DNA of 64,000 nucleotides, taken from assembly GCF_016612505.1 (NCBI RefSeq), contig NZ_JAENRR010000005.1, positions 62,001 through 126,000 on the forward strand, written 5' to 3'. This document shows positions 3,576 through 52,655 of this stretch, one piece after another. A program made the translations under genes and the position numbers. Within the stretch, counting starts at the first letter, position 1; every line of letters begins with the position of its first letter. Source of the stretch: Carboxylicivirga marina. Lineage in GTDB: Bacteria > Bacteroidota > Bacteroidia > Bacteroidales > Marinilabiliaceae. The notes below the pieces were generated by a model. It searched no databases. It had not been told where the DNA came from and saw only the letters and a program-made list of their open reading frames with translations.

Positions 3576-4943
3576 TTAATACGGAATCAATTTCTTGTAC
3601 TTCTTGTTGCGAAGGTAGCCTGAAATAATTGAACGTGTATTACCGTTATCGTCAAACATGCTAATATGCTCTTTAAATTGCTGAGGTGATTCAATACAAG
3701 CATCTTCATCAAGATATCCCCATCCGAGATAACGACCATTTTCAATAACAACAAGTGAAACTTCCGAATCATTTCGACCTTTGTCCATAATTACAAGGTT
3801 ATTATGTCCGTATGATAACTTTTTAAGCAAATCCGATACACGATTATTATAACCCACATTAGATTCCTCGCCAACACATGCACCCTTACAGGTCTTTAAT
3901 TGGTATTGAAAACAACCATGGTTACCATCATACAATCCACAAAGCTGCTGACATAGTTCATATTCTTCTATCCATTGAAAAAGCCTCTCCCGAGCCTCCT
4001 GCATGCTCTCAAACGTTGCACTTGGAATTTCTACCCCACTATTAGGTTTTAACATCAAACGAATGTAACCTCTCCTATCGGTATAATTATATAAACCTAT
4101 TTTAGTTTTCGAACGACGTTGTGCACGGTTATATCGTGGTTTATCCTGCTTAATTTCATGAGATTCTTTTAATAAGGCTATCAATTCACTTCCGGTCATA
4201 TTAAAACTAATATCAGCCGTATTTTGCTTCATTTCAATACCTTTTTTTGTACGAGGATTACCAAGGTGAGTAATAATACGGTTTCTGATGTTTTTACTTT
4301 TTCCGATATATATCAGTTCACCGTTTTCATTATGCAAATAATAAACACCCGTTTGTGTTGGCAGTTTTTTTATTGTATCAATTGACAAATTAGGGTGAAG
4401 ACCATTAGCAGAGAACTCTTTATAAGGATCCTCCGGATTAAGAATACCATTATTCCTTTCAAGTAAAATTTCAAATAATTCTACGGTTGCTAATGCATCA
4501 CCAGCGGCTCTATGTCGGGCATCATTACCAATACCAAGGTCGGGGCATATTTTACCCAGGCTATAGGATGCATGACCGGGTAATAATTTGCGCGACAGTT
4601 TTACTGTACAAATAGTTGGCATTTCGAAATTAAAGCCTAAGTTGCGAAACTCCTCTTTAATGAAGTTGTAGTCAAAAGCCGCATTGTGTGCTACAAATAC
4701 AGCATCCTTACATATTTCAACTATGTCTTTGGCTATTTGATAGAATAAAGGTGCAGAAGCAACCATTTCGTTGGTAATACCAGTTAATGATGTGATAAAC
4801 GGCGGAATATAGCTTTCTGGATTTACTAAACTTACAAATTCATCTACAACTTTCTCTCCATCATGACGGTAAATGGCCACTTCAGTTATCTTGCCATTTT
4901 TCATGTTTCCACCCGTTGTTTCAATATCTACAATTACATACAT
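3576..4943 (-). CDS. DEDDh 3'-5' exonuclease fused to a GIY-YIG (UvrC-like) nuclease
   Basis: Residues 1-165 form a DnaQ-type exonuclease: DIETTGG at residues 6-12 supplies the first two acidic residues, HNAAFDYNF the next motif, and HRAAGDA the last His/Asp pair. A GIY-YIG domain follows near residue 198 (GVYYLHNENGELIYIGKSK), as in UvrC and Cho. After it comes a cysteine-rich segment (CQQLCGLYDGNHGCFQYQLK, then CKGAC) like the Cys cluster in UvrC/Cho. This exonuclease/GIY-YIG fusion is a known family, probably acting in DNA repair; its exact role is unclear. I start at the ATG at 4943: the frame extends 30 bases further but only reaches a TTG, and the DEDD motif normally sits at the very N-terminus. 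Confidence 0.85.
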   Translation of the reverse strand: MYVIVDIETTGGNMKNGKITEVAIYRHDGEKVVDEFVSLVNPESYIPPFITSLTGITNEMVASAPLFYQIAKDIVEICKDAVFVAHNAAFDYNFIKEEFRNLGFNFEMPTICTVKLSRKLLPGHASYSLGKICPDLGIGNDARHRAAGDALATVELFEILLERNNGILNPEDPYKEFSANGLHPNLSIDTIKKLPTQTGVYYLHNENGELIYIGKSKNIRNRIITHLGNPRTKKGIEMKQNTADISFNMTGSELIALLKESHEIKQDKPRYNRAQRRSKTKIGLYNYTDRRGYIRLMLKPNSGVEIPSATFESMQEARERLFQWIEEYELCQQLCGLYDGNHGCFQYQLKTCKGACVGEESNVGYNNRVSDLLKKLSYGHNNLVIMDKGRNDSEVSLVVIENGRYLGWGYLDEDACIESPQQFKEHISMFDDNGNTRSIISGYLRNKKYKKLIPY

Positions 4944-5071
4944 GCACCCCTTTGTTTTTAAAACCAACACCAACTTTTAGCTCGGTGTTAAAGTAATGGT
5001 AAAAGTACACATTTTAATTTTTTATCAATCAATATCTTCCGATGTAAAACATGTAAAACCCTTATATTTTC

Positions 5072-5102
5072 TTGGATACAGACACATAAAAAGCTATATT
5101 TG
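5072..5102 (+). promoter_or_regulatory. promoter of the structured RNA candidate
   Basis: TATATTTG at 5095-5102 is a perfect TAnnTTTG -7 box, with TTG at 5072-5074 twenty bases upstream as -33 box. No plus-strand protein gene lies downstream before the convergent yihY gene, which points to a non-coding transcript. Confidence 0.55.
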
Positions 5103-5107
5103 TAATA

Positions 5108-5315
5108 CAATCATTGAAACTAAAATATACCGCATCAGTCGTATTTAGATTGTTAAACTCAACACTAAAAAAGCACCGAGTGACGCTATGTTTTTAAAGA
5201 GCGGGCCTCGCCCTTGTGGTTACTACTTATAGTACGGAGGATTATCGATAATTACATGCACTCAATTCCTGTTTTCAGGAGTTTAAATAATCCCGATTGA
5301 TGCGGTTCTTTTATT
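5108..5315 (+). ncRNA. candidate structured non-coding RNA, about 200 nt, possibly 6S-like
   Basis: The interval lies between a consensus promoter (-7 box at 5095-5102) and the 3' end of the convergent yihY gene. Its ends pair: 5129-5141 (ACCGCATCAGTCG) with 5294-5306 (CGATTGATGCGGT) gives 13 consecutive pairs including one G-U. Further inward, GATT (5148-5151) can pair with AATC (5289-5292), TTAAACTC (5153-5160) with GAGTTTAA (5279-5286), and GAGTG (5178-5182) with CACTC (5259-5263). Small internal hairpins include GGGC/GCCC (5203-5213). The closing stem is followed by a U-rich tail, TCTTTTATTT. A long rod closed by its two ends, with loops in the middle, is the architecture of 6S RNA, but identity with 6S or a known Bacteroidota RNA family is not established by eye. 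Confidence 0.6.
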
Positions 5316-5322
5316 TACTTCC

Positions 5323-6630
5323 CTACAAATCCTTTAATAGTAAGTTAGCTTTACTTGTGGCTACTTTTTCCCTCAGAATAGACAAGGCCTCTTTAAGCTT
5401 AATAAGATCTTCAGTATCCTCGTAATGAAGATCATGAGTACCATGTTGATCGATCATATTAATGACCTTGCCAATACTCAGCTGATGTATTGCCAATGCA
5501 GGTTGGAAGTAGGTGTCTTTTGAAGCATTATAGGCAATTTCATTAAACACTTCACTTTCTACTAGCTTAGTGAGTAATTCGTTTACTAACCTAAGAGGTA
5601 ATTTAAGTTCTAACGATAATTCCAGGTTATTATATGGTTTATCGCCCCTATTGAAACGCTTAACAACCCTTTCAACCAGCAATAGTAGTAAGAGCCTTTT
5701 ATAAGAGTGACTTATATTTCTTATATCTGAATCAAATTCATAGCTATGTGCATTTTGATGTGCATAAGTTAGCTCCGCTCCAAATAATACAATTAGCCAA
5801 CTGAGATTCATCCACATCATGAATAAAGGTAATGCGGCAAAGGCGCCATAAATAGCATTATAGCTTGTAACCATTTTTTGGAAGTGGAAATAACCAAACT
5901 GCAGTAGTTGAAACATTGTTCCGGCCAAAATACCGCCGAATAAAGCCGATAAAGGTTTAACACGGGCATTGGGCATAATTGACAGCAAAAGGGCAAATAC
6001 GGCCCACGCTATAACGTAGGAAGCCACAGGTAACAACCACTGAACATTAATACCAAAGTCTGATAAACGATTAGTTATTAAAATAATCATACCACCCGAA
6101 GAAGCAACGGTTAAAATACCAACGAACATTAATGACATAAAGTCACTGAATTTTCGTAACATACTTCGCGAGTGTTTTACTTTCCAGATTTGATTAAAAG
6201 AGAATTCAATATTACTAAACACCTGTAAAACAGACCAAAGTAATATTGCTAAACCTATACCAGCTAAATTACCTCCTGGAGTAGCCTCAAGATAACTAGT
6301 TGCAAACTTGCTTACACGTTGCACAACTTCTGTTTGCCCTTCCATATGTGATTCCAGAAATGAAGTCAGACGACGATCAAGTCCGAATCCCTTAGCAATA
6401 CCAAACCCTAATGCAGCAACAGGAACAATTGAAATAAGTGAGTAGAAGGATAAAGAAGCAGCTTTCTGAACGCAGTTATCTTGAATAAACCCCTTAAAAG
6501 CAAGGTAAAAAGTCCGAATCAAGCGAATTAAAAAGAACTGTTGACGAGGCGTTTGATCGGCTCTAATTCGCCAAATTTCTTCATTTAGATAATGGATCAC
6601 CTTTGATATCAGCCCCTTCATATTCATCAT
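5323..6630 (-). CDS. YihY/BrkB family inner-membrane protein
   Basis: A 435-residue polytopic membrane protein of the YihY (formerly ribonuclease BN/BrkB) family. The N-terminus holds the family signature KAASLSFYSLISIVPVAALG (about residues 61-80). Roughly six hydrophobic segments follow, including AGIGLAILLWSVLQVFSN and a conserved segment around GAFAALPLFMMWMNLSWLIVL. The last 130 residues are soluble and cytoplasmic, a common extension resembling a winged-helix region (LELSLELKLPLRLVNELLTK). Its molecular function is not known; the old nuclease assignment for the family was withdrawn. The gene lies directly downstream of rnpB on the same strand. Confidence 0.85.
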   Translation of the reverse strand: MMNMKGLISKVIHYLNEEIWRIRADQTPRQQFFLIRLIRTFYLAFKGFIQDNCVQKAASLSFYSLISIVPVAALGFGIAKGFGLDRRLTSFLESHMEGQTEVVQRVSKFATSYLEATPGGNLAGIGLAILLWSVLQVFSNIEFSFNQIWKVKHSRSMLRKFSDFMSLMFVGILTVASSGGMIILITNRLSDFGINVQWLLPVASYVIAWAVFALLLSIMPNARVKPLSALFGGILAGTMFQLLQFGYFHFQKMVTSYNAIYGAFAALPLFMMWMNLSWLIVLFGAELTYAHQNAHSYEFDSDIRNISHSYKRLLLLLLVERVVKRFNRGDKPYNNLELSLELKLPLRLVNELLTKLVESEVFNEIAYNASKDTYFQPALAIHQLSIGKVINMIDQHGTHDLHYEDTEDLIKLKEALSILREKVATSKANLLLKDL

Positions 6631-6650
6631 TGCGTAGGTTTAAAAGAAAA

Positions 6651-7013
6651 TAGCAAGCCTATAAGCCGGGTCCTGTCCTCCCAAGGGAGTGTCTATCATT
6701 TATCTAGAATAGCAGTTACCCACTAATTCGAGCGACCTACCCCTCACAACTTCTTGCGAAACAAAGCGAGCAGCTCTGCTCCAAATGGAATTATGATATA
6801 CATGGTCTTGCAACCCGTAAGACGTACAACTAAGATAGTTACCTACCTCATTGGTGAGCTCTTACCTCACCTTTTCACCCTTACCCGAAGGCGGTTATTT
6901 TCTGCTACGTTACTAAACCCTCACGAGCTTCTTCCTATTCAGAAGTACGGTGCTCTTCATTGCCCAGACTTTCCTCTCCAACCCTTCAGTTGCAGCGATA
7001 GACCGGCTTGCTA
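6651..7013 (-). ncRNA. rnpB: RNase P RNA (catalytic RNA subunit)
   Basis: Read on the minus strand, this 363-base interval carries the hallmark conserved stretches of bacterial RNase P RNA: GAGGAAAGTCTGGGC near the 5' end, GCAGAAAATAACCGCC in the middle, and GACAGGACCCGGCTTAT near the 3' end. The two ends pair perfectly as helix P1: TAGCAAGCC (7013-7005) with GGCTTGCTA (6659-6651), which fixes the boundaries. The RNA trims 5' leaders from tRNA precursors. Its promoter lies inside the 3' end of the upstream SPOR-like gene. The gene has no overlap with real proteins; an ORF on the opposite strand is incidental. Confidence 0.97.
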
Positions 7014-7019
7014 TTGTTG

Positions 7020-10736: not shown

Positions 10737-13700
10737 TTATCGTCTTAATTCAATATAACCTGTGTATTGCTTCGTTTGAATATCTCCATCTATATTTACA
10801 TCAATAGTAAATACATAGAAGTATGTTCCACTTGGAAGTTTATCGCCTATTGACACCATTGCACCTGAGTTAGCGAGTCCATCCCAATAATTACCATCTT
10901 CTCCATAAAACTTACCTTGCGAACGATATATAACAGTTCCCCATCGGTTAAATACCTCAAGATTAGATTCCGCTACATCATTCTCAAAACTTCCGCTAAT
11001 TACAAACAAATCATTGATACCATCTCCATTTGGTGAAAAGGCGTTAGGTATTAACAAGTTATCGTCTTCAGACACATCTACATTACCAACAAAGAAATAT
11101 ACGCGCGCAGTATCTCGACGGTCAGGGTAATCAGTATTGTACACAACGTAATCAATCGAATCACTTCCATAGAAAGTAGGTAACTTCGTAAATATTAAAC
11201 TACCATCAGGGTATATTTCTACTTGATTTCCTATTGCGGTATTCATGGATAAGATATCCAACTTATCAGGCTGGGTTAAATCGACTAATCCAAAATGAAT
11301 ATTCTTATTACCTCCTGTTAAAACATCAATGACTTCATCTTTTTCGTCATTGTACCATACAGACGTATCTGCAGTGTTATTTCCATAATGAACAGCAACA
11401 ATATCGTCGATTGCTATTAATTGCTTCTCATATAACTGAACCTGCCCTATCATATCATTTTCACATCCATTCAAATCTATAGCTTTCACGCTATAGAAAC
11501 CTGGTTCAGATTTAGTTCCTAAACTCAACTCTTCTCCAGTTCCAGGCGCACCAATATCAGCAGGATCTGGCAAACCATCCTTGAAAAGATAGTAGCCTAC
11601 ATTTTCTTGAGAACTTACAAGTTTAAGTTCAGACACATTAGTCAATCCCACACAAAGTGGATCACAGGCATTCAGCATTCCTCCATCCAGGAATAGTTCG
11701 AATGCAGTTGGTATTGGATTTTCGGTTACAATAACATCGGTACTTGTTACATTACAACCTGATGCATAATTCCGGGCAAGAACTTTGTATGTTCCTTCCA
11801 TTACCGGATTAGCAAAACTTTTGCTAACACCATCGGTACCGTCAACAAAAGATATGGTGTTACCCATTTCATTTAATAACTGATATCCAATACCAGTTTG
11901 AGTTGCTTCGACAGTCAATTCAATACCCTCAGAACCAGCGCAATATTCAGCATTTGTAACATTTAGACTTATTGCATTTGGTGCAGTCCTGGTTATGATA
12001 CGGATAACGCCTAACAGCACATCACAAGCACTACCATCGCCCTCGGCATATACTTCATACATGGCATCGGTTGGTGCATCTGGAGTAAATCGAATCTGAA
12101 CAGGACTGCCACTATTATCAGCATCATCAACTTTATGGAAAGAAATCTCAACACCAAGATCGTCTTTTAGGCTATAACGACGTCCCATTTCACTTCCATC
12201 AAGGTTAATAACGATTTCTTCGTTTAAGCAAATATTGAATTCGCGCTCTGCTACATTAAAGGCAACCGGACTGAGATCTTCTGTGACAACAATCGAGTTT
12301 CCATCATTCATAACCGTAACACATCCTAAACCACCATAAGAAGCCTGAATAACATATGTTCCAGCTATCACTTCACCAAGTATTAGAGCAGTACCTGAAG
12401 CATCACCTGTTGTTTCAGCAACAACATTCATAGCTTCATCAACTACCTGATACAATATTCCTTCTTCCTGGTTTTGAAGTTCAAGTGTAGCACCACCATC
12501 TGAAGAGCAATATTGCATAGCACTTTCTGTTGCCAATTGCATAGCTATTTCAGCTCCTGAACTTACACTTACTGTATCCCTCATACTCGATGTACAGCCA
12601 TACGGCGAAATACTGTATACTGTATAATTTCCTGATACAGTAATCGGCATGAATTCTAAAGGATTACCATCACCAATTTTTGTTTCAACAGGCACATTAC
12701 CGGTACCATCATCTTGCAATAAAATATAGGTATAACCATCTTCAGAACCATCTAAAGTTAGAATAGCAGGGTCAGAAGAGCAATACTTATCTGCTCCTAT
12801 TAATTTATATGAGCTTGGTAGCGGATTATACTTGATAGTCACCTCATTCAGCATACTGTTACTACAGCCAGAAGGATCATTGATAAGATCATCGTAGCCC
12901 CTTACACGGTAATTTCCTTCCGCATATAAAGGTTCAAACTCAATCGGATCTGTTAAATGTGTCGCCAGTATGGTATCTACTGCGGTTTCACTATTCATAG
13001 CATCGACACGATATAAGACATAGTCCACTTCAGCCTCAGGGTTTTGCACCTGAATGGCAATGGTACCCGAACCAATACAAATAGGCCCTGAAGGAATATA
13101 GGTGATATCTTTCTTACCAACCACTCCGGTTATCTGAACGTGAATAGGATCTATATACGTATCATCAATTATTACAGAACAAGAACCACGATAGGCTTCC
13201 ACTCGGTAATAACCATCTGCATCAAATACTTCATCAAAAGATGCTGAACTACCATCTCCGACACCGATAATTTCATACCCCGGTATTGGGAGATCCGTTG
13301 CCATACTTACAAGTACATAGCGAACATCAAGTTCGGTATTTGGAATTGTGATGACAATTCCTTTATTACAATCCGCATCAGCAGGCACATCAATTATTAA
13401 TGAACGATCTTCCGGCAAGCTTATCATGCTTACTGCTATGGCATTGTTCATTACAACAGGGCCACAACTTGTATTGGTATTATTCTTGATGGCTTGCACA
13501 GTGTAATCGCCCGCGTTGGCAACATCCCAAACAATCTGACCGCCAGTTACAAGTCCCATGTCTCCAGTAGAAACACCGTCCACCAGTAACTCGTAACTAA
13601 CATCACTCTCAGGATTGTTTATATATAACCTTGCAGTTCCACCGCCTTCACAGAATTCTGTTTCACCCTGAAGGTCAAGTATTATTGCTTCAGGATCTTC

Positions 13701-16700
13701 AACTATTAAAATTGTATTTAGCATATCAACTTCACAGCTGATACCTTCAACATTTGCTTTTACAGAGTAGCTTCCAGCGAGGTATGTACCAGTAAATACC
13801 AACTGACCACCATCAGTAACAGACAAGATATCTTCTACCGGATTTCCATCCTGATATAAGGTATATCTATTTCCAGACTGTTGATTATCAATCATTAGCT
13901 GAACACCCGCATCACCAGGACAATAGCTCTCAATTCCATTTAGGGTCAATAAGTTAAACGGCGTTGGTAATGCTTCTTCAACCAAAGTAGCAATACCTTC
14001 CATTGGATAATAACACCCACTTGCAGTTTTAACACTAACGGTATAGTCTCCAGCCTGATCATAAGGCCCAAATGTATGTGCATTACCATCACCAGTCCAG
14101 TCAGAACCGATGATTTCGGCACCATTATAATTTACCACATAGACTGTTCCATCGTCAGCTGAACCACCCAGTATTAGCTCAACTCCTGTACTTCCTGTAC
14201 AGAATCGGCCATGAGCAGGATTAGGATTCACATTAAATAATGCTCCACTCCAGTCTGACTTAATCGTAAATGTTCCGGCCATATCAATAGAACATCCATT
14301 GCGCTCACCAATTATGGTGTAAGTCCCTGTCGTTAACTGATTCCCAAAAGGTATTGCATTACCATCACCAGCAACAGGCACTCCAATCTGAATTCCATCA
14401 ACATATAAGGTGTAATTAACTCCAACTTCAGAAGCATCTAATGAAATTGCATGACCAGCGCCATCGTTACATCCATCCACTTCTCCAGTTGGTTGTATTG
14501 AGAATGTATTATTCGGAAGTGGCGTTTCTATAACTTCAACTGAGTTAGACATTACAATGCGATCAGCTGGAACCGACGCCCAATAAGCCTCAACTTTATA
14601 AGTTGCTGTACCAAAATACTCAAGATCAACACCGTTAACACCATGAGTCCATCGAATTTCTTCAGTAGGATCGGCGATAACAATCGTTCCGATAGACTGT
14701 GCATCTTCATTTCTGATCAATTCATAAGTGACACCAGTCATAACAGGTGGTACCACGTAAATTGAAACAGATTCTGGTGAACCTTCACAATAGCTTTGAC
14801 TCGCAGGCTCAAGCACTGATGGGAATAAACCTTCGAACACACTAATTACCAGATCAGTACTATCTTTACAACCATTACTTGTTGTTGCAATGACTCTAAC
14901 AACACTGTTATTAGCACTTACATCGGCAGGCGTCCAACTAAATGTTTCGGAGCCATCGTGTGATGTCTGTAAGGAGCCGTTTATCTTATAATCATAATTA
15001 ACGACGTCTGTTCCGCTTGCAGTAAATATAACTTCAGTACCGGCAATTACGCTCGTACCTGGTGTGGCTACTAAACCCACTCCAGATAATGGATTAACAG
15101 TTACATCTAGTGTTGCAGCACTTAGAGCTGTACAATTAAATGCATTTTCATAATTGACACTAATGGCATGGTTACCAGCAGTATTCCAAAGTACTTCTAT
15201 GGTTTCTGTTCCTACTCCATTGACGATAGTTCCATCAGCTGGTACAATCCAATTGTAATTTAAGAAACCTGCTTCTGTCGTATATACTTCAACATTATCA
15301 ATACAAGCAGTTTCATTACCTATAATAGTTGGCACAGGAGTCACATTAACAGTAACATCTAGCAACTGTGGAGTAGCAGGGTCACAACTATTTGCATCTG
15401 TATAACTTACAGAGATTGATTGCGCTCCTTCATTATTCCATACTACTTCAATTCTACCATTATTGTCGTCGACATCAATGGTTCCACCTGTCACTATCCA
15501 ACTATAATTGGTCATACCTGTTTCGGTAGTATATACCTCGCGGTAAGTATTACAAACCACATCGTTACCAGATAATGTAACAACAGGTAGAGGGTGCACG
15601 GTTACATTTTGAACCGTTGGGTTTACGGCCGGACAGCCACCAGAGTTATCATAATTAACCGAGACTGATCCCGCTCCTTCAGTATCCCATGTAACTATAA
15701 TCTCTTCAGGGCCTGCACCAGCAGCATAAGTACCACCAGTAACATTCCATGTGTAGTTATTTTGGCCTGACTCTGTGGTATATACATGTCCACTTGTGTT
15801 GATACAAGCTTCTGTTGGACCATTTAATGATACACTTGGAACAGAGTTAACTGTTACCGGAAGAACAAATGGCGCAGTTGCAGGACAAGAGCCTAACTCA
15901 TAGTTAACACTAATTTCTCTTGCCGCACCTAAAGTCCAAACGACATCAACTACATGCGCATCGGCAGTTGGAATAATTGTTCCACCATTTATCTGCCAAT
16001 CATAATTAGAGGCTCCAGCCTGTGTTGTATAAGTTATCGTGTGCCCTTCACACACATCATCCAAACCAGTAATGGTTGGATTTGGTAAATCGACAACCGT
16101 AATATTTGTCGACGATGGAGTTGCTGCATCGCAACCTTCAATATCTTTGTAAGCTACAGTGATTGTTTGTGTACTATTCATAGTCCAGTCAACAACAATC
16201 TCATTAGTACCCTGACCACTTGATATGCTACCACCTGCACTTACAGTCCATACATAGTCAGACATACCAGATTCAGTTGTATATGTATCTGATGTAAAGT
16301 TACATACTGTACTTGCTCCAGCAATACTTGGTACTGGCAATGGATTCACAGTTACCGGATAAACTGTTGGAATAATCGGGTTACAATTATTCGCATCCAG
16401 ATAAGTAACACTTATTATTCTCGCTCCAGCTGAAGTCCATGTTACAGACACCGACTCAGATCCGGCACCAGAATCAATAGTACCACCAGTTATCGTCCAT
16501 ACGTAATTTGACATACCAGCTTCAGTGGCATATACATTTCCGGATGAATTTTGACATACTTCTGCCGGACCATCAATCGTTGGAACCGATAAGCTATTTA
16601 CAAATACAGGTAATACAAAAGGTGCGGCGGCAGCACAATTTCCTGCACTGGCTTCATAATTTACACTGACACTTTGTGCTCCAGGGGTAGTCCATAGAAC

Positions 16701-19700
16701 ATCAATAATATGTGGATCAGCTGTTGGAATCATAGAACCGCCCACAACATTCCATGTATAATTATTATATCCACCTTCGGTCGTATACCGTTCTGTTGAA
16801 TTCAGACAAACCGGATCGTTTCCTAAAATACCAGGTGTTGGAAGTGGGTGAACGATAACGGCTAGTTGTTCAGGATTAGTTGCATCACAACCTGCAGCAT
16901 TATCATAATTGACGCTTACTGAACCATTTCCTTCAGTATCCCAAAGAACAGTTACGGTTCCATTACCATCATTTGTTTGTTCTGTTCCACCAACAATAGT
17001 CCAAACATAGTTACTCATTCCTGCTTGCGTACTGTACGTTTCAACACTATTCAAACATACGTCTTCTTTACCAACTGTAAATGAGATAGCAGGTAAAGAG
17101 TTAACTGTAATATTTGCAACGGTTGGCGCTAAAGGATCACAACCATCAATACTTTTGTAAGTAACAGAAACAGTTTGAGCACCCGTGTTATCCCATCTGA
17201 TATCTATAAAATCATTTCCATTTCCACCACCTTGAATAGTTCCACCGGTAAAGGTCCAAACATATCCATTTTCACCAGCTCCTGAATCAGTGGTATAATG
17301 AATCACCTCATTTTGACAAGGTGTCAGTTCACCACTAATGCTTGGTGTTGGCAAAGGATGTACATCAATAATAACAGGAGGAACAGAACTTGCCGTACAA
17401 CCTTTATCGGAAGTAGCAGTTACATAAACCTGATCGTTATCATTAAAAGTATTAGTAATATAAGAGTTCGAAGCACCATTCTGAACTGGTGTTCCCGAAC
17501 CATTTACATAAAAAGCATAATTTGAAAATCCTGTTGTAGCCGTCAATGTAACATCTTGTCCCTGACAAACAGGATTCGGATTAGCTACTAAGCTAACGGC
17601 CGGATTATCATTAACAGTAATTGTAATACTTGATGAAGTATGGCTACAGCCTGAATTCGTTTCAGTAACCACAACATAAATCACATCTCCATTAACCAAT
17701 GCATTGTCGGTATAAACCGCTGATGCACCATTTTGTACGACATCATTGGCAACACCACGCAAGCGATGGAACTCATAGTTAAAGTTGGCTGATGGATCGT
17801 TTGGAATCTTAACACCACTGGCATTAAATGTGACTGGGGTACCGGCACAAATCTCAGTACCTCCAACAACCGGAGCTGTTACACTAATACCTGCTGTTAC
17901 TTCATTAACAGTTACAGCAACACTTGCAGTTGCGTTACAATCTGTTGCATAATCAGTATCGTAACCAATAACAACAACTACATCTCCATCGGTTAATATG
18001 TCTGTATTAAAAGTGTTATCAACACCACGCCCTTGTAGCAAGGTACCTGATACACTTCCCAGGTAGAATGCATATTCATCTGCACCTCCAGCTGTAAATT
18101 CCACATCTGTTCCTACACAAAATTCAGCACTCACCGGATTACAACTTAAAGTAACATTTGGCACCGGATTAACCGTCACAACGGAGGCACCAGTCATATC
18201 GCCCACTATAGCACTACAAGCAGCATCACTTAATGCTGTAACTGAATAATTATATACTGTCTGAACACCTGCAGGATTTGTAGCAGGTGTTACATTAATT
18301 TCATAAGGACTTGCATTAGCAGTTACATTATAAGTGCTAAAACCATCGGAATATTCAATATTCCATGGAGCAACACCGGTTAAATCAATTGAAACGGTTG
18401 TTGCATCACCTTCACACAAATCAACAGCTCCTGCCATAACCGAAGTAGGTCTTGTATTCACAGTAATATCAGCAACACCAGTTAAAGTACTTGCTGAACA
18501 AACCGGCACATTGGCATCCGTTAAGGATGTAATGGTATAAGTTGTATTTATAATTGGTGAAACACTAACCGTATGCGGGCTAGTGGCTATATTGTTTTCA
18601 TTAAATGTATTACCGAAGTTATCCTGATAAACCAAATCCCATGGCCCAACACCTGTTAGGTTAAAAGTCAAATTTGTACTTTCTCCTTCACAAATTGTAG
18701 TTGTACCAACTATTTCACCTGTTGGTACTTCATTGACAATGACTGTAGCTTCACCTGTCATTTCAGGAGCTCCAGCAGAACAAGTACCATTTGATAATGC
18801 AGTAACAGTATACTTGACAGGACTTAATGCAACATCAGGCACGACGGCTTCAATATGTGCAGCATCACTGGTTGTTATTGAATAGGTAGTTGTACCATCG
18901 GTATATTCAATACTCCATGGTGCCTGACCTGTTAAAGCAAAAGACAAATCAGTTGTCTGACCATCACATACAGTATTATCTCCTGATAAAACAACTGTAG
19001 GTAGTTCATCTACAGATACTGCCACGCTAGCTGTAGCTCCACAGCTTGTAATCGCAGAAGTGCTGGTGTCAAATCCTTCAACAACAACAACATCACCATC
19101 AGTTAATGTTGTAGTGTTATAGGTATCGTCAGTACTACGAGCCTGCACAATGTTTGCAGGATCAACAGTTCCCAGATAAAAGGTGTATTCATCGGCACCA
19201 CTGGCTGTGAAAGTCACATCCGTTCCCGCACAAAATCTGTCACCTGTTTGATCACTATTTAGATCAACATTTGGCACATCATTTACTTTAACCTTCCATC
19301 CGTTAGCTGGATCTGCATCTGGCATGGTCGATGAACATGTACCATTATCGGCGATAACATAGAAATTATAATCACCTGCTGTAAAAGCTGTTTGATCAAA
19401 ACTTATCGGCCCATTTTCACCATTCCCTATGGTCAGTTCATTGGCAGCACTTCCGACTAAGCCACCCCATAATGCATAACTTGTAGTTGAAGCCTCTGTA
19501 TCATCCAACTGTAATGAAAATATTTCACCTCTACATACTTCATCTGGTCCGGTCAATGCAAAACGTTCCGGTGATTTAAATACACGAACTCGCTTTGCAT
19601 ATTGCCCTAAACTGGATGCATTAGAAGTCCCTTCAATTAAAACCAGACTTACCTCCACTCCATTAAGGCCATCAGTTACACCCCCTGGCGTAAAATAGTA

Positions 19701-19943
19701 ATCACCAGTACCTGAATCATAGCGAATTAATTCAGGAATTGTAGCTAAAGGGTTAGATTCTTGTCCTAGGGTTCTTACATCCCAGAAATAATCTGTCCAT
19801 GCCCCAATATCCGGACAATCTAATAAAATTTCAGGATCGCTACTACAATTACTTGCAGGAACGCAACTTTGGGCATTACTCTTTTGAGCTACCCAAGTCA
19901 TTGCTAATATAAGAAGTATGAATGTATGTAAAAATCTTTTCAT
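10737..19943 (-). CDS. giant repeat-rich surface adhesin with gliding-type (type B) C-terminal domain
   Basis: A 3068-residue secreted protein: signal peptide (FLHTFILLILAMTWVAQ), mosaic of Ig/PKD-like repeats, and a C-terminal domain (about 2960-3068) starting PNAFSPNGDGINDLF and containing VFNRWGTVIY. This is the gliding-motility-associated C-terminal domain that directs proteins to the type IX secretion system. Repeats fall into blocks: two copies of a FCxGTDVxFTAxGADEYxFYLG unit (about 225-315, 590-680) flanking three LTGxxPWxxxY units; nine 84-residue units with YTTEAGxxNYxW (about 864-1623); then some 14 units of a CxGxxGVxLxL...GxYTVxA type (about 1710-2840). Related to SprB-type adhesins by architecture; the ligand is unknown. 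Part of a five-gene operon with PorP/SprF. Confidence 0.93.
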   Translation of the reverse strand: MKRFLHTFILLILAMTWVAQKSNAQSCVPASNCSSDPEILLDCPDIGAWTDYFWDVRTLGQESNPLATIPELIRYDSGTGDYYFTPGGVTDGLNGVEVSLVLIEGTSNASSLGQYAKRVRVFKSPERFALTGPDEVCRGEIFSLQLDDTEASTTSYALWGGLVGSAANELTIGNGENGPISFDQTAFTAGDYNFYVIADNGTCSSTMPDADPANGWKVKVNDVPNVDLNSDQTGDRFCAGTDVTFTASGADEYTFYLGTVDPANIVQARSTDDTYNTTTLTDGDVVVVEGFDTSTSAITSCGATASVAVSVDELPTVVLSGDNTVCDGQTTDLSFALTGQAPWSIEYTDGTTTYSITTSDAAHIEAVVPDVALSPVKYTVTALSNGTCSAGAPEMTGEATVIVNEVPTGEIVGTTTICEGESTNLTFNLTGVGPWDLVYQDNFGNTFNENNIATSPHTVSVSPIINTTYTITSLTDANVPVCSASTLTGVADITVNTRPTSVMAGAVDLCEGDATTVSIDLTGVAPWNIEYSDGFSTYNVTANASPYEINVTPATNPAGVQTVYNYSVTALSDAACSAIVGDMTGASVVTVNPVPNVTLSCNPVSAEFCVGTDVEFTAGGADEYAFYLGSVSGTLLQGRGVDNTFNTDILTDGDVVVVIGYDTDYATDCNATASVAVTVNEVTAGISVTAPVVGGTEICAGTPVTFNASGVKIPNDPSANFNYEFHRLRGVANDVVQNGASAVYTDNALVNGDVIYVVVTETNSGCSHTSSSITITVNDNPAVSLVANPNPVCQGQDVTLTATTGFSNYAFYVNGSGTPVQNGASNSYITNTFNDNDQVYVTATSDKGCTASSVPPVIIDVHPLPTPSISGELTPCQNEVIHYTTDSGAGENGYVWTFTGGTIQGGGNGNDFIDIRWDNTGAQTVSVTYKSIDGCDPLAPTVANITVNSLPAISFTVGKEDVCLNSVETYSTQAGMSNYVWTIVGGTEQTNDGNGTVTVLWDTEGNGSVSVNYDNAAGCDATNPEQLAVIVHPLPTPGILGNDPVCLNSTERYTTEGGYNNYTWNVVGGSMIPTADPHIIDVLWTTPGAQSVSVNYEASAGNCAAAAPFVLPVFVNSLSVPTIDGPAEVCQNSSGNVYATEAGMSNYVWTITGGTIDSGAGSESVSVTWTSAGARIISVTYLDANNCNPIIPTVYPVTVNPLPVPSIAGASTVCNFTSDTYTTESGMSDYVWTVSAGGSISSGQGTNEIVVDWTMNSTQTITVAYKDIEGCDAATPSSTNITVVDLPNPTITGLDDVCEGHTITYTTQAGASNYDWQINGGTIIPTADAHVVDVVWTLGAAREISVNYELGSCPATAPFVLPVTVNSVPSVSLNGPTEACINTSGHVYTTESGQNNYTWNVTGGTYAAGAGPEEIIVTWDTEGAGSVSVNYDNSGGCPAVNPTVQNVTVHPLPVVTLSGNDVVCNTYREVYTTETGMTNYSWIVTGGTIDVDDNNGRIEVVWNNEGAQSISVSYTDANSCDPATPQLLDVTVNVTPVPTIIGNETACIDNVEVYTTEAGFLNYNWIVPADGTIVNGVGTETIEVLWNTAGNHAISVNYENAFNCTALSAATLDVTVNPLSGVGLVATPGTSVIAGTEVIFTASGTDVVNYDYKINGSLQTSHDGSETFSWTPADVSANNSVVRVIATTSNGCKDSTDLVISVFEGLFPSVLEPASQSYCEGSPESVSIYVVPPVMTGVTYELIRNEDAQSIGTIVIADPTEEIRWTHGVNGVDLEYFGTATYKVEAYWASVPADRIVMSNSVEVIETPLPNNTFSIQPTGEVDGCNDGAGHAISLDASEVGVNYTLYVDGIQIGVPVAGDGNAIPFGNQLTTGTYTIIGERNGCSIDMAGTFTIKSDWSGALFNVNPNPAHGRFCTGSTGVELILGGSADDGTVYVVNYNGAEIIGSDWTGDGNAHTFGPYDQAGDYTVSVKTASGCYYPMEGIATLVEEALPTPFNLLTLNGIESYCPGDAGVQLMIDNQQSGNRYTLYQDGNPVEDILSVTDGGQLVFTGTYLAGSYSVKANVEGISCEVDMLNTILIVEDPEAIILDLQGETEFCEGGGTARLYINNPESDVSYELLVDGVSTGDMGLVTGGQIVWDVANAGDYTVQAIKNNTNTSCGPVVMNNAIAVSMISLPEDRSLIIDVPADADCNKGIVITIPNTELDVRYVLVSMATDLPIPGYEIIGVGDGSSASFDEVFDADGYYRVEAYRGSCSVIIDDTYIDPIHVQITGVVGKKDITYIPSGPICIGSGTIAIQVQNPEAEVDYVLYRVDAMNSETAVDTILATHLTDPIEFEPLYAEGNYRVRGYDDLINDPSGCSNSMLNEVTIKYNPLPSSYKLIGADKYCSSDPAILTLDGSEDGYTYILLQDDGTGNVPVETKIGDGNPLEFMPITVSGNYTVYSISPYGCTSSMRDTVSVSSGAEIAMQLATESAMQYCSSDGGATLELQNQEEGILYQVVDEAMNVVAETTGDASGTALILGEVIAGTYVIQASYGGLGCVTVMNDGNSIVVTEDLSPVAFNVAEREFNICLNEEIVINLDGSEMGRRYSLKDDLGVEISFHKVDDADNSGSPVQIRFTPDAPTDAMYEVYAEGDGSACDVLLGVIRIITRTAPNAISLNVTNAEYCAGSEGIELTVEATQTGIGYQLLNEMGNTISFVDGTDGVSKSFANPVMEGTYKVLARNYASGCNVTSTDVIVTENPIPTAFELFLDGGMLNACDPLCVGLTNVSELKLVSSQENVGYYLFKDGLPDPADIGAPGTGEELSLGTKSEPGFYSVKAIDLNGCENDMIGQVQLYEKQLIAIDDIVAVHYGNNTADTSVWYNDEKDEVIDVLTGGNKNIHFGLVDLTQPDKLDILSMNTAIGNQVEIYPDGSLIFTKLPTFYGSDSIDYVVYNTDYPDRRDTARVYFFVGNVDVSEDDNLLIPNAFSPNGDGINDLFVISGSFENDVAESNLEVFNRWGTVIYRSQGKFYGEDGNYWDGLANSGAMVSIGDKLPSGTYFYVFTIDVNIDGDIQTKQYTGYIELRR
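15075..17350 (-). repeat. nine tandem ~250-bp repeats inside the adhesin gene
   Basis: Nine consecutive units of about 84 codons, each starting with a Pro-rich linker, a xGxxxVC segment, YTTExGxxNYxW, a Gly/Asn-rich turn and W...G...SVxYxxxxGC. Units are diverged at DNA level, so they are not a recent slippage product, but remain recombination-prone in principle. Confidence 0.85.
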
Positions 19944-52345: not shown

Positions 52346-52378
52346 CTCTTTTTCTCCCGAAAGATTTATGTTTGAATA

Positions 52379-52537
52379 GCATTACGCACAAGGTTTTCCG
52401 ACTTTCCTTCTTTATTGCTCCTTCCCATTAATCGAAATTAACAGTGGATGATTACAACAAAGTTCCTGACTAAAGGTGCGGATTACGGCTGCGGGTACAG
52501 TTCAGGCCTTACACCTGATTCCCTTATTGTGTAATGC
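52379..52537 (-). ncRNA. cobalamin riboswitch
   Basis: On the minus strand the 5' part reads GGGAATCAGGTG, then GGCCTGAACTGTACCCGCAG, the highly conserved core of cobalamin riboswitches. CCACTG and GGGAAGG follow in the peripheral domain, and the B12-box relative AGTCGGAAAACCTTGTG sits at the 3' end. The outer helix P1 pairs exactly: GCATTAC (52537-52531) with GTAATGC (52385-52379), which sets the limits (159 bases). The btuF start codon is 34 bases further on, so control of translation by masking is possible; a terminator hairpin is not evident. Confidence 0.93.
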
Positions 52538-52539
52538 TG

Positions 52540-52547
52540 CAAAAGTA
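52540..52547 (-). promoter_or_regulatory. -7 box of the btuFCD operon
   Basis: TACTTTTG on the minus strand is a perfect TAnnTTTG, 2 bases before helix P1 of the riboswitch, so transcription would begin inside or just before P1. No clear -33 box is seen. Confidence 0.6.
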
Positions 52548-52655
52548 ATGTTTATATTGGAATAATCTTAACACATTGGGTTCATAGATCACAGATACAA
52601 AACGTCAAACACTTCGCCTCCTACTTATTGCCAATCACTATGCTGGATTTTCCAG

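Follow-up and report, generated by a model that had tools for sequence, protein, structure and literature searches.

A probable 6S RNA gene of the Bacteroidales-1 family in Carboxylicivirga marina and a boxA-like element in the leaders of its homologues

6S RNA mimics an open promoter and thereby sequesters RNA polymerase. RNAs of this class share a layout of long closing helix, central bubble, internal stem and apical loop; a hairpin in the 3' strand of the bubble occurs among them but is not universal, and linkage of the gene to zapA is common, not defining. In Bacteroides thetaiotaomicron, a 6S RNA and two classes of product RNA (pRNA) have been detected by sequencing (PMC7366714), a result that is not tied here to an RF01693 locus. 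Rfam entitles its family RF01693, Bacteroidales-1, "6S-Bacteroidales RNA suggested", a wording under which 6S identity is only suggested, and the passages on this family in Weinberg et al. (2010) give no function (PMC2864571). In Bacteroidota, the -7 box that goes with the primary sigma factor reads TAnnTTTG (PMC7366714, PMC9723704); it lies at -12 to -5 in Flavobacterium psychrophilum (PMC9723704), and the consensus for Bacteroides fragilis features TTTG near -33 (PMC7366714). For boxA, the published gamma-proteobacterial sequence is GYTCTTTAANA (PMC5725501). Prevention of Rho-dependent termination is ascribed to the boxA complex (PMC5725501, PMC4807359) and, in the case of rRNA, NusB-bound boxA has been proposed to keep the strand of the leader close to the polymerase until the trailer has emerged and pairs with it (PMC10250234). 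In the literature searched, boxA, 6S RNA and antitermination were not found together, nor did any of the papers listed contain both boxA and 6S RNA.

The window analyzed here is a stretch of 64,000 nucleotides from contig NZ_JAENRR010000005.1 of Carboxylicivirga marina, and its features of interest are collected in Table 1. A first-pass annotation had pointed out some 210 bases free of open reading frames and had proposed a 6S-type RNA, naming Bacteroidales-1 as a candidate family. The former holds, open reading frames of at least 60 amino acids being absent between 4973 and 5323, and the latter is supported: the region is matched by RF01693 over the full length of the model (1-179 of 179) with 88.5 bits against a cut-off of 60 and an E-value of 5.6e-13. 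The gene is present in single copy in the host genome. At the same place, the 6S-Flavo model RF01685 finds a weak match of 31.1 bits, far under its cut-off of 85, and the general 6S model RF00013 has no match in the host genome even at an E-value of 10. The control genome of Bacteroides ihuae is likewise unmatched by RF00013.

Table 1. Coordinates of the RNA gene, its parts and its flanking genes in the window
Feature	Position	Strand	Basis
Flanking gene, exonuclease and GIY-YIG domains	3576..4973	-	PF00929, PF01541
TTG, possible -33 element	5072..5074	+	20 bases ahead of -7 box; inferred
-7 promoter box TATATTTG	5095..5102	+	sequence; TAnnTTTG in 36/38 homologous loci
6S RNA transcript, predicted start, end from Rfam match	5107..5313	+	RF01693 and -7 box spacing
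Degenerate boxA-like leader element AATCATTGAA	5109..5118	+	rRNA-leader matrix, p 0.027 per 80-base stretch
Closing helix P1, 5' strand (partner 5294-5306)	5129..5141	+	pairing, covariation
RF01693 Bacteroidales-1 match	5137..5313	+	88.5 bits, model 1-179
Inner closing helices, 5' strand (5148-5151, 5153-5160)	5148..5160	+	38-sequence pairing
Central bubble, 5' strand; predicted pRNA template start	5161..5177	+	unpaired in consensus fold; template role predicted
Internal stem and apical stem-loops	5178..5263	+	helix 5 covariation
Central bubble, 3' strand; rival hairpin 5264-5271/5276-5283	5264..5278	+	hairpin tests, folding
Inner closing helices, 3' strand (5279-5286, 5289-5292)	5279..5292	+	38-sequence pairing
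Closing helix P1, 3' strand	5294..5306	+	pairing, covariation
Flanking gene, YihY/BrkB family membrane protein	5323..6630	-	PF03631

RF01693 was found in 38 of the 60 genomes of a set of relatives, with the host included in both figures, and each of the 13 remaining genomes of the genus has it. A covariance model, termed R1, was made from 26 of these 38 sequences; its E-values are rough. R1 detects the RNA in 54 of the 60 relatives, in 45 of the 149 genomes of a class set and in 109 of the 395 genomes of a larger class set (the host is counted in all of these numbers), with one match in each genome that has any. It thus widens detection by 16 further genomes of the relatives set in which RF01693 found none, and the possibility raised at the outset, that the region might prove unconserved, has not materialized. 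Sub-threshold matches to 6S-Flavo fall on RF01693 or R1 sites in all seven genomes concerned in the relatives set and in four of five in the class set, the fifth (G193) being without an R1 match. At loci L047-L053 and L055-L058, RF01685 and either RF01693 or R1 mark the same places, and no clan is displayed for either family. RF01693 and RF01685 appear to be one RNA, and the shared sites provide evidence for uniting two Rfam families that lack a displayed clan.

The ends of the transcript had been predicted to pair over 13 consecutive positions, and all 13 positions of 5129-5141 do pair with 5294-5306, 12 of them as Watson-Crick pairs and one as G-U. Further nested helices are found at 5148-5151/5289-5292, 5153-5160/5279-5286, 5178-5200/5245-5263 (interrupted) and 5206-5209/5237-5240. 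When positions 5105-5320 are folded, as had been recommended, -52 kcal/mol is reached versus a mean of -38.6 (sd 3.6, z -3.75) for 200 shuffles, one of which was equally good. An alignment of the 38 loci yields a consensus of 48 pairs in 8 helices, in which the long closing helix, the central bubble and the internal stem with apical loop of 6S RNA are all present, in agreement with the rod with internal loops described initially. Standard pairs fill 94.3% of the cells versus 84.0% with partners shuffled, two-sided changes occur in 33 of the 48 pairs versus 17.5 in shuffles and the covariation score is 0.373 versus 0.177, values to be read with the facts that the sequences are related and that the structure, for all that the alignment was built without one, was mostly derived from the same alignment, which favours it. 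Sliding the partners by one to three columns lets pairing fall to 31.8-43.9%. Covariation among relatives extends to the outer closing helix, where 11 of 12 pairs show two-sided changes in at least one of the 38 sequences each, and to helix 5, the internal stem, where all 11 pairs do; in the inner closing helices starting at 5148 and 5153, 94.0% and 97.7% of the cells are paired across the 38 sequences. We reject a chance fold on the z value against shuffles and the covariation in the 38 loci.

The hairpin in the 3' strand of the bubble makes a less consistent picture, with 85.2% of its cells paired versus 84.2% in shuffles and two pairs with two-sided change. Folding of the free window RNA favours the hairpin over the inner closing helix (up to 0.96 versus 0.15 at best), while among six folded relatives the inner closing helix is favoured in five and the hairpin in one. 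Since covariation of the hairpin is weak and the hairpin is already favoured in the free RNA, a switch between the two is not clearly supported for the window sequence. A likeness of the bubble strand to the -7 box was judged by eye only, and we make no claim on it.

A consensus promoter had been proposed upstream of the RNA, and the box is indeed there. TAnnTTTG is present within 110 bases upstream of the RF01693 match in 36 of the 38 loci (it is missing within this distance at L010 and L045) and within 60 bases in 34, at distances of 24-51 bases; L040 and L006 have it farther out. From the position of the box and the spacing in Flavobacterium psychrophilum, a transcription start at about 5107 is predicted. 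A scan for sigma-70 type promoters, which does not model those of Bacteroidota, gave 3 promoter-like sites versus 2.6 in shuffles. As for the 3' end, the tail is U-rich as described, though only moderately so, and a single terminator-like site was found, located on the opposite strand.

The exonuclease/GIY-YIG neighbour was matched in 25 and the YihY-type neighbour in 21 of the 38 loci, the host included in both counts. With flanks of 1.5 kb or less considered, both were matched in 17 loci, one or both in 29 and neither in 9. For the YihY-type protein, identity amounts to 82% with a protein from Carboxylicivirga sp. M1479 and to 81% with one from a Saccharicrinis assembly. The same protein shares 82% identity with its counterpart in genome G007 and only 55-57% with those of most other genomes of the genus, in contrast to the exonuclease neighbour with 72-87% across these genomes; the YihY-type gene may have been replaced in one lineage. 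Just upstream of it, at 6646-7014 on the minus strand and about 1.3 kb from the 6S RNA, resides a class A RNase P RNA (RF00010, 220.5 bits). Elsewhere in the window, a cobalamin riboswitch (RF00174, 59.9 bits) is located at 52371-52569 (minus strand), and a reading frame of 3068 amino acids with many repeated stretches spans 10737-19943 (minus strand), the ending of which we take, by eye, to resemble those of proteins of the gliding-motility/type IX secreted kind.

A zapA gene is absent beside the window RNA. Of the 60 R1 loci not belonging to the first set, 41 have a ZapA frame ahead of the RNA, and so do 34 of 65 further loci from new genomes, as detected with an HMM from ten Pfam-confirmed proteins at an E-value of 1e-4 in the longest frame ending no more than 220 bases upstream; all ten upstream ZapA proteins checked against Pfam match PF05164. 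The one E. coli record inspected has the gene order zapA, ssrS, fau. At L061 and L062, from two genomes of the host's order, the RNA follows a frame with an L20-like product, presumably ribosomal protein L20 as recognized by eye.

Many loci feature an element resembling boxA between the promoter and the closing helix. The exact sequence GTTCTTT, which had been noticed in leaders before it was counted, is present in the 120 bases ahead of the RNA at 39 of 57 distant loci; 2 of 57 have it in the next 120 bases and none on the opposite strand, and 0.8 is the expected number. L069, L075 and L081, which sit at contig ends, were dropped from these leader counts and kept in the zapA count of 60. With the pattern fixed, new genomes gave 32 of 65 loci versus none in the next stretch and 3 on the other strand, some of them from genera already represented in the first set. 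The control stretches, taken 120-240 bases upstream, differ from the non-coding leader in that many of them are coding. The exact sequence is missing in 18 of the 57 and 33 of the 65 loci, some of which have near variants, and [TA]TC[TA]TTGA is missing in 13 of the 38 loci of the first set, a count slightly affected by overlap of the pattern with the promoter box at L007 and L044, which inflates its occurrence. The rRNA leaders of the clade contain GTTCTTTGAAAA or variants in 16 of 20 genomes; if more than one match was present in a leader, the site was chosen by eye. In three of the remaining four genomes the leader comprised 64 bases or less, and G124 was without a match. A matrix built from rRNA leaders only, applied at a 99% background threshold to up to 80 bases, accepts 24 of 38 first-set loci (perhaps also inflated by the overlap) and 23 of 57 second-set loci; controls farther upstream gave 0 and 1 of 38 and 6 and 1 of 57, and the other strand 0 and 2.

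Where zapA is linked, the distance from its stop codon to the start of the element is 0 to 18 bases in 29 of 35 cases, and 0 to 12 bases in 22 of 25 cases from new genomes. L104, L118 and L122 are among the zapA-linked loci in which it begins within a few bases of the stop. The element is also found at loci without a detected zapA (5 in the first count and 7 in new genomes) and in the window family, and it thus goes with the RNA. In genome G002, the rRNA boxA and the 6S leader have a common variant, CGATCTTTGA.

The copy in the window itself differs from the rRNA boxA of the host genome, GTTCTTTGAA, at three of ten positions, and better copies are present in sister loci; it may have decayed. 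This degenerate copy, with a p value of just 0.027, is the main weakness of the leader reading for the window. Seven loci, all of the host's order (L002, L003, L005, L060-L063), have no element near the RNA; at L060 and L004 a match lies about 91-92 bases out. Loci of the host's order that resemble the RF01693 consensus are without the element near the RNA, and GTTCTTT occurs in none of six new loci of this order, one of which (L209) is zapA-linked. These absences, like the loci elsewhere that are without the exact pattern, speak against extending the leader reading to the whole class.

What, then, is the RNA? It could be a structured Bacteroidales-1 RNA of another kind, binding the polymerase core like Ms1 or acting on some other target, as the cautious Rfam title, the failure of RF00013 to match in the host genome and the description by Weinberg et al. 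(2010) would allow. The arrangement of closing helix, bubble and apical stem, the sites common with 6S-Flavo, a zapA linkage like that of E. coli ssrS and the detection of 6S RNA and pRNAs in B. thetaiotaomicron (PMC7366714) all speak against this, and we consider it improbable. A regulator of the neighbours, antisense or derived from a 3' untranslated region and with either the convergent YihY-type gene or the exonuclease gene as target, might be imagined from the direction of the RNA, which runs toward the 3' end of gene 5323-6630, and from the recurrence of the neighbours in the first set. We reject this idea and rate its chances as minute: the structure model still matches distant homologues with other neighbours, and the RNA as matched overlaps neither gene. 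The R1/6S-Flavo site sharing, the zapA linkage and the 6S RNA and pRNAs of B. thetaiotaomicron make 6S RNA the best reading, which is also backed by the RF01693 match, the two-sided changes in the 38 loci and the recurring promoter box. On the opposite side stand the missing RF00013 match, the low 6S-Flavo score, the weakly covarying hairpin and the position of the window RNA away from zapA. The window region is very probably a 6S RNA gene with its own primary-sigma promoter and a bubble that would act by analogy with known 6S RNA.

Turning to the leader, it is conceivable that GTTCTTT is a 5' processing or promoter element that resembles boxA by chance. In favour of this, the element is close to the 5' end of the RNA, with the window copy at about +3 of the predicted transcript, and most 6S leaders have not retained the wider context GAAAATATT of rRNA. 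A fixed part of the promoter it is unlikely to be, since TAnnTTTG is found within 60 bases ahead in only 3 of 35 zapA-linked loci with the element. Furthermore, the element fits a matrix derived solely from rRNA leaders as well as the published gamma-proteobacterial boxA (PMC5725501), and RNase P leaders of the same genomes rarely have it (GTTCTTT in 1 of 30, with 2 of 30 passing the matrix). We give the chance resemblance somewhat less than an even prospect. We regard it as evenly poised whether, across much of the class Bacteroidia, an rRNA-type boxA antitermination signal, either at the zapA stop or just behind the gene's own promoter, governs transcription of 6S RNA.

On the 6S reading, a primary-sigma promoter of its own would give rise to an RNA of about 205 bases, the two ends of which would pair as closing helix, with further helices leading to a central bubble of about 17 plus 15 unpaired bases and an internal stem bearing two apical stem-loops. 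From what known 6S RNAs do, we infer that the bubble mimics an open promoter, holds RNA polymerase with the primary sigma factor and serves as template for a short product RNA. Extension of this product through 5163-5148 would break helix 5153-5160/5279-5286 and favour the hairpin 5264-5283, whereupon the polymerase would be released. Being untranslated and having a 5' end that must pair with its 3' end, 6S RNA has needs like those of rRNA. A gene for NusB is present in the host genome, and the boxA-like element in the leaders of the clade may recruit NusB/S10, so that the untranslated RNA is made to its end. Bound there, NusB/S10 would shield the RNA from Rho, hold the 5' end until its 3' partner emerges and bring the two ends together, in line with the proposal for rRNA; with boxA at the zapA stop codon, this action would begin at the point of ribosome release. 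A functional leader would connect 6S RNA with the machinery that transcribes rRNA and with the supply of ribosomal proteins. If the whole scheme is true, a global transcription brake would be made by the same machinery as rRNA and be tied to free S10.

Compared with described systems, the window RNA has the conserved bubble and stem sequences of RF01693 along its full length; it differs in that the outer closing helix, left unpaired in the Rfam structure line, is supported here by covariation, and in that the leader element falls outside the Rfam model. With 6S-Flavo it has the bubble sequences ACUCAACACUAA and GUUUU...AGGAGUUU in common, and the genomic places coincide in several genomes, whereas its score stays far below the RF01685 cut-off. 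It resembles E. coli 6S RNA in the rod with closing helix, central bubble and internal stem, and many of its distant homologues sit behind zapA as ssrS does; the host genome, however, is without a match to the E. coli-type family RF00013, and in the single E. coli record inspected GYTCTTT does not occur over the 500 bases ahead of ssrS. Many 6S leaders share the GTTCTTTGA core with rRNA boxA and its placement upstream of a helix that joins both transcript ends (PMC10250234), but the sequence past the core differs in most 6S loci, and the transcript concerned is not rRNA but a small regulatory RNA. Taken as a 6S RNA, the window gene adds one ordinary member to a known family; what may be new is the boxA-like leader found across much of the class.
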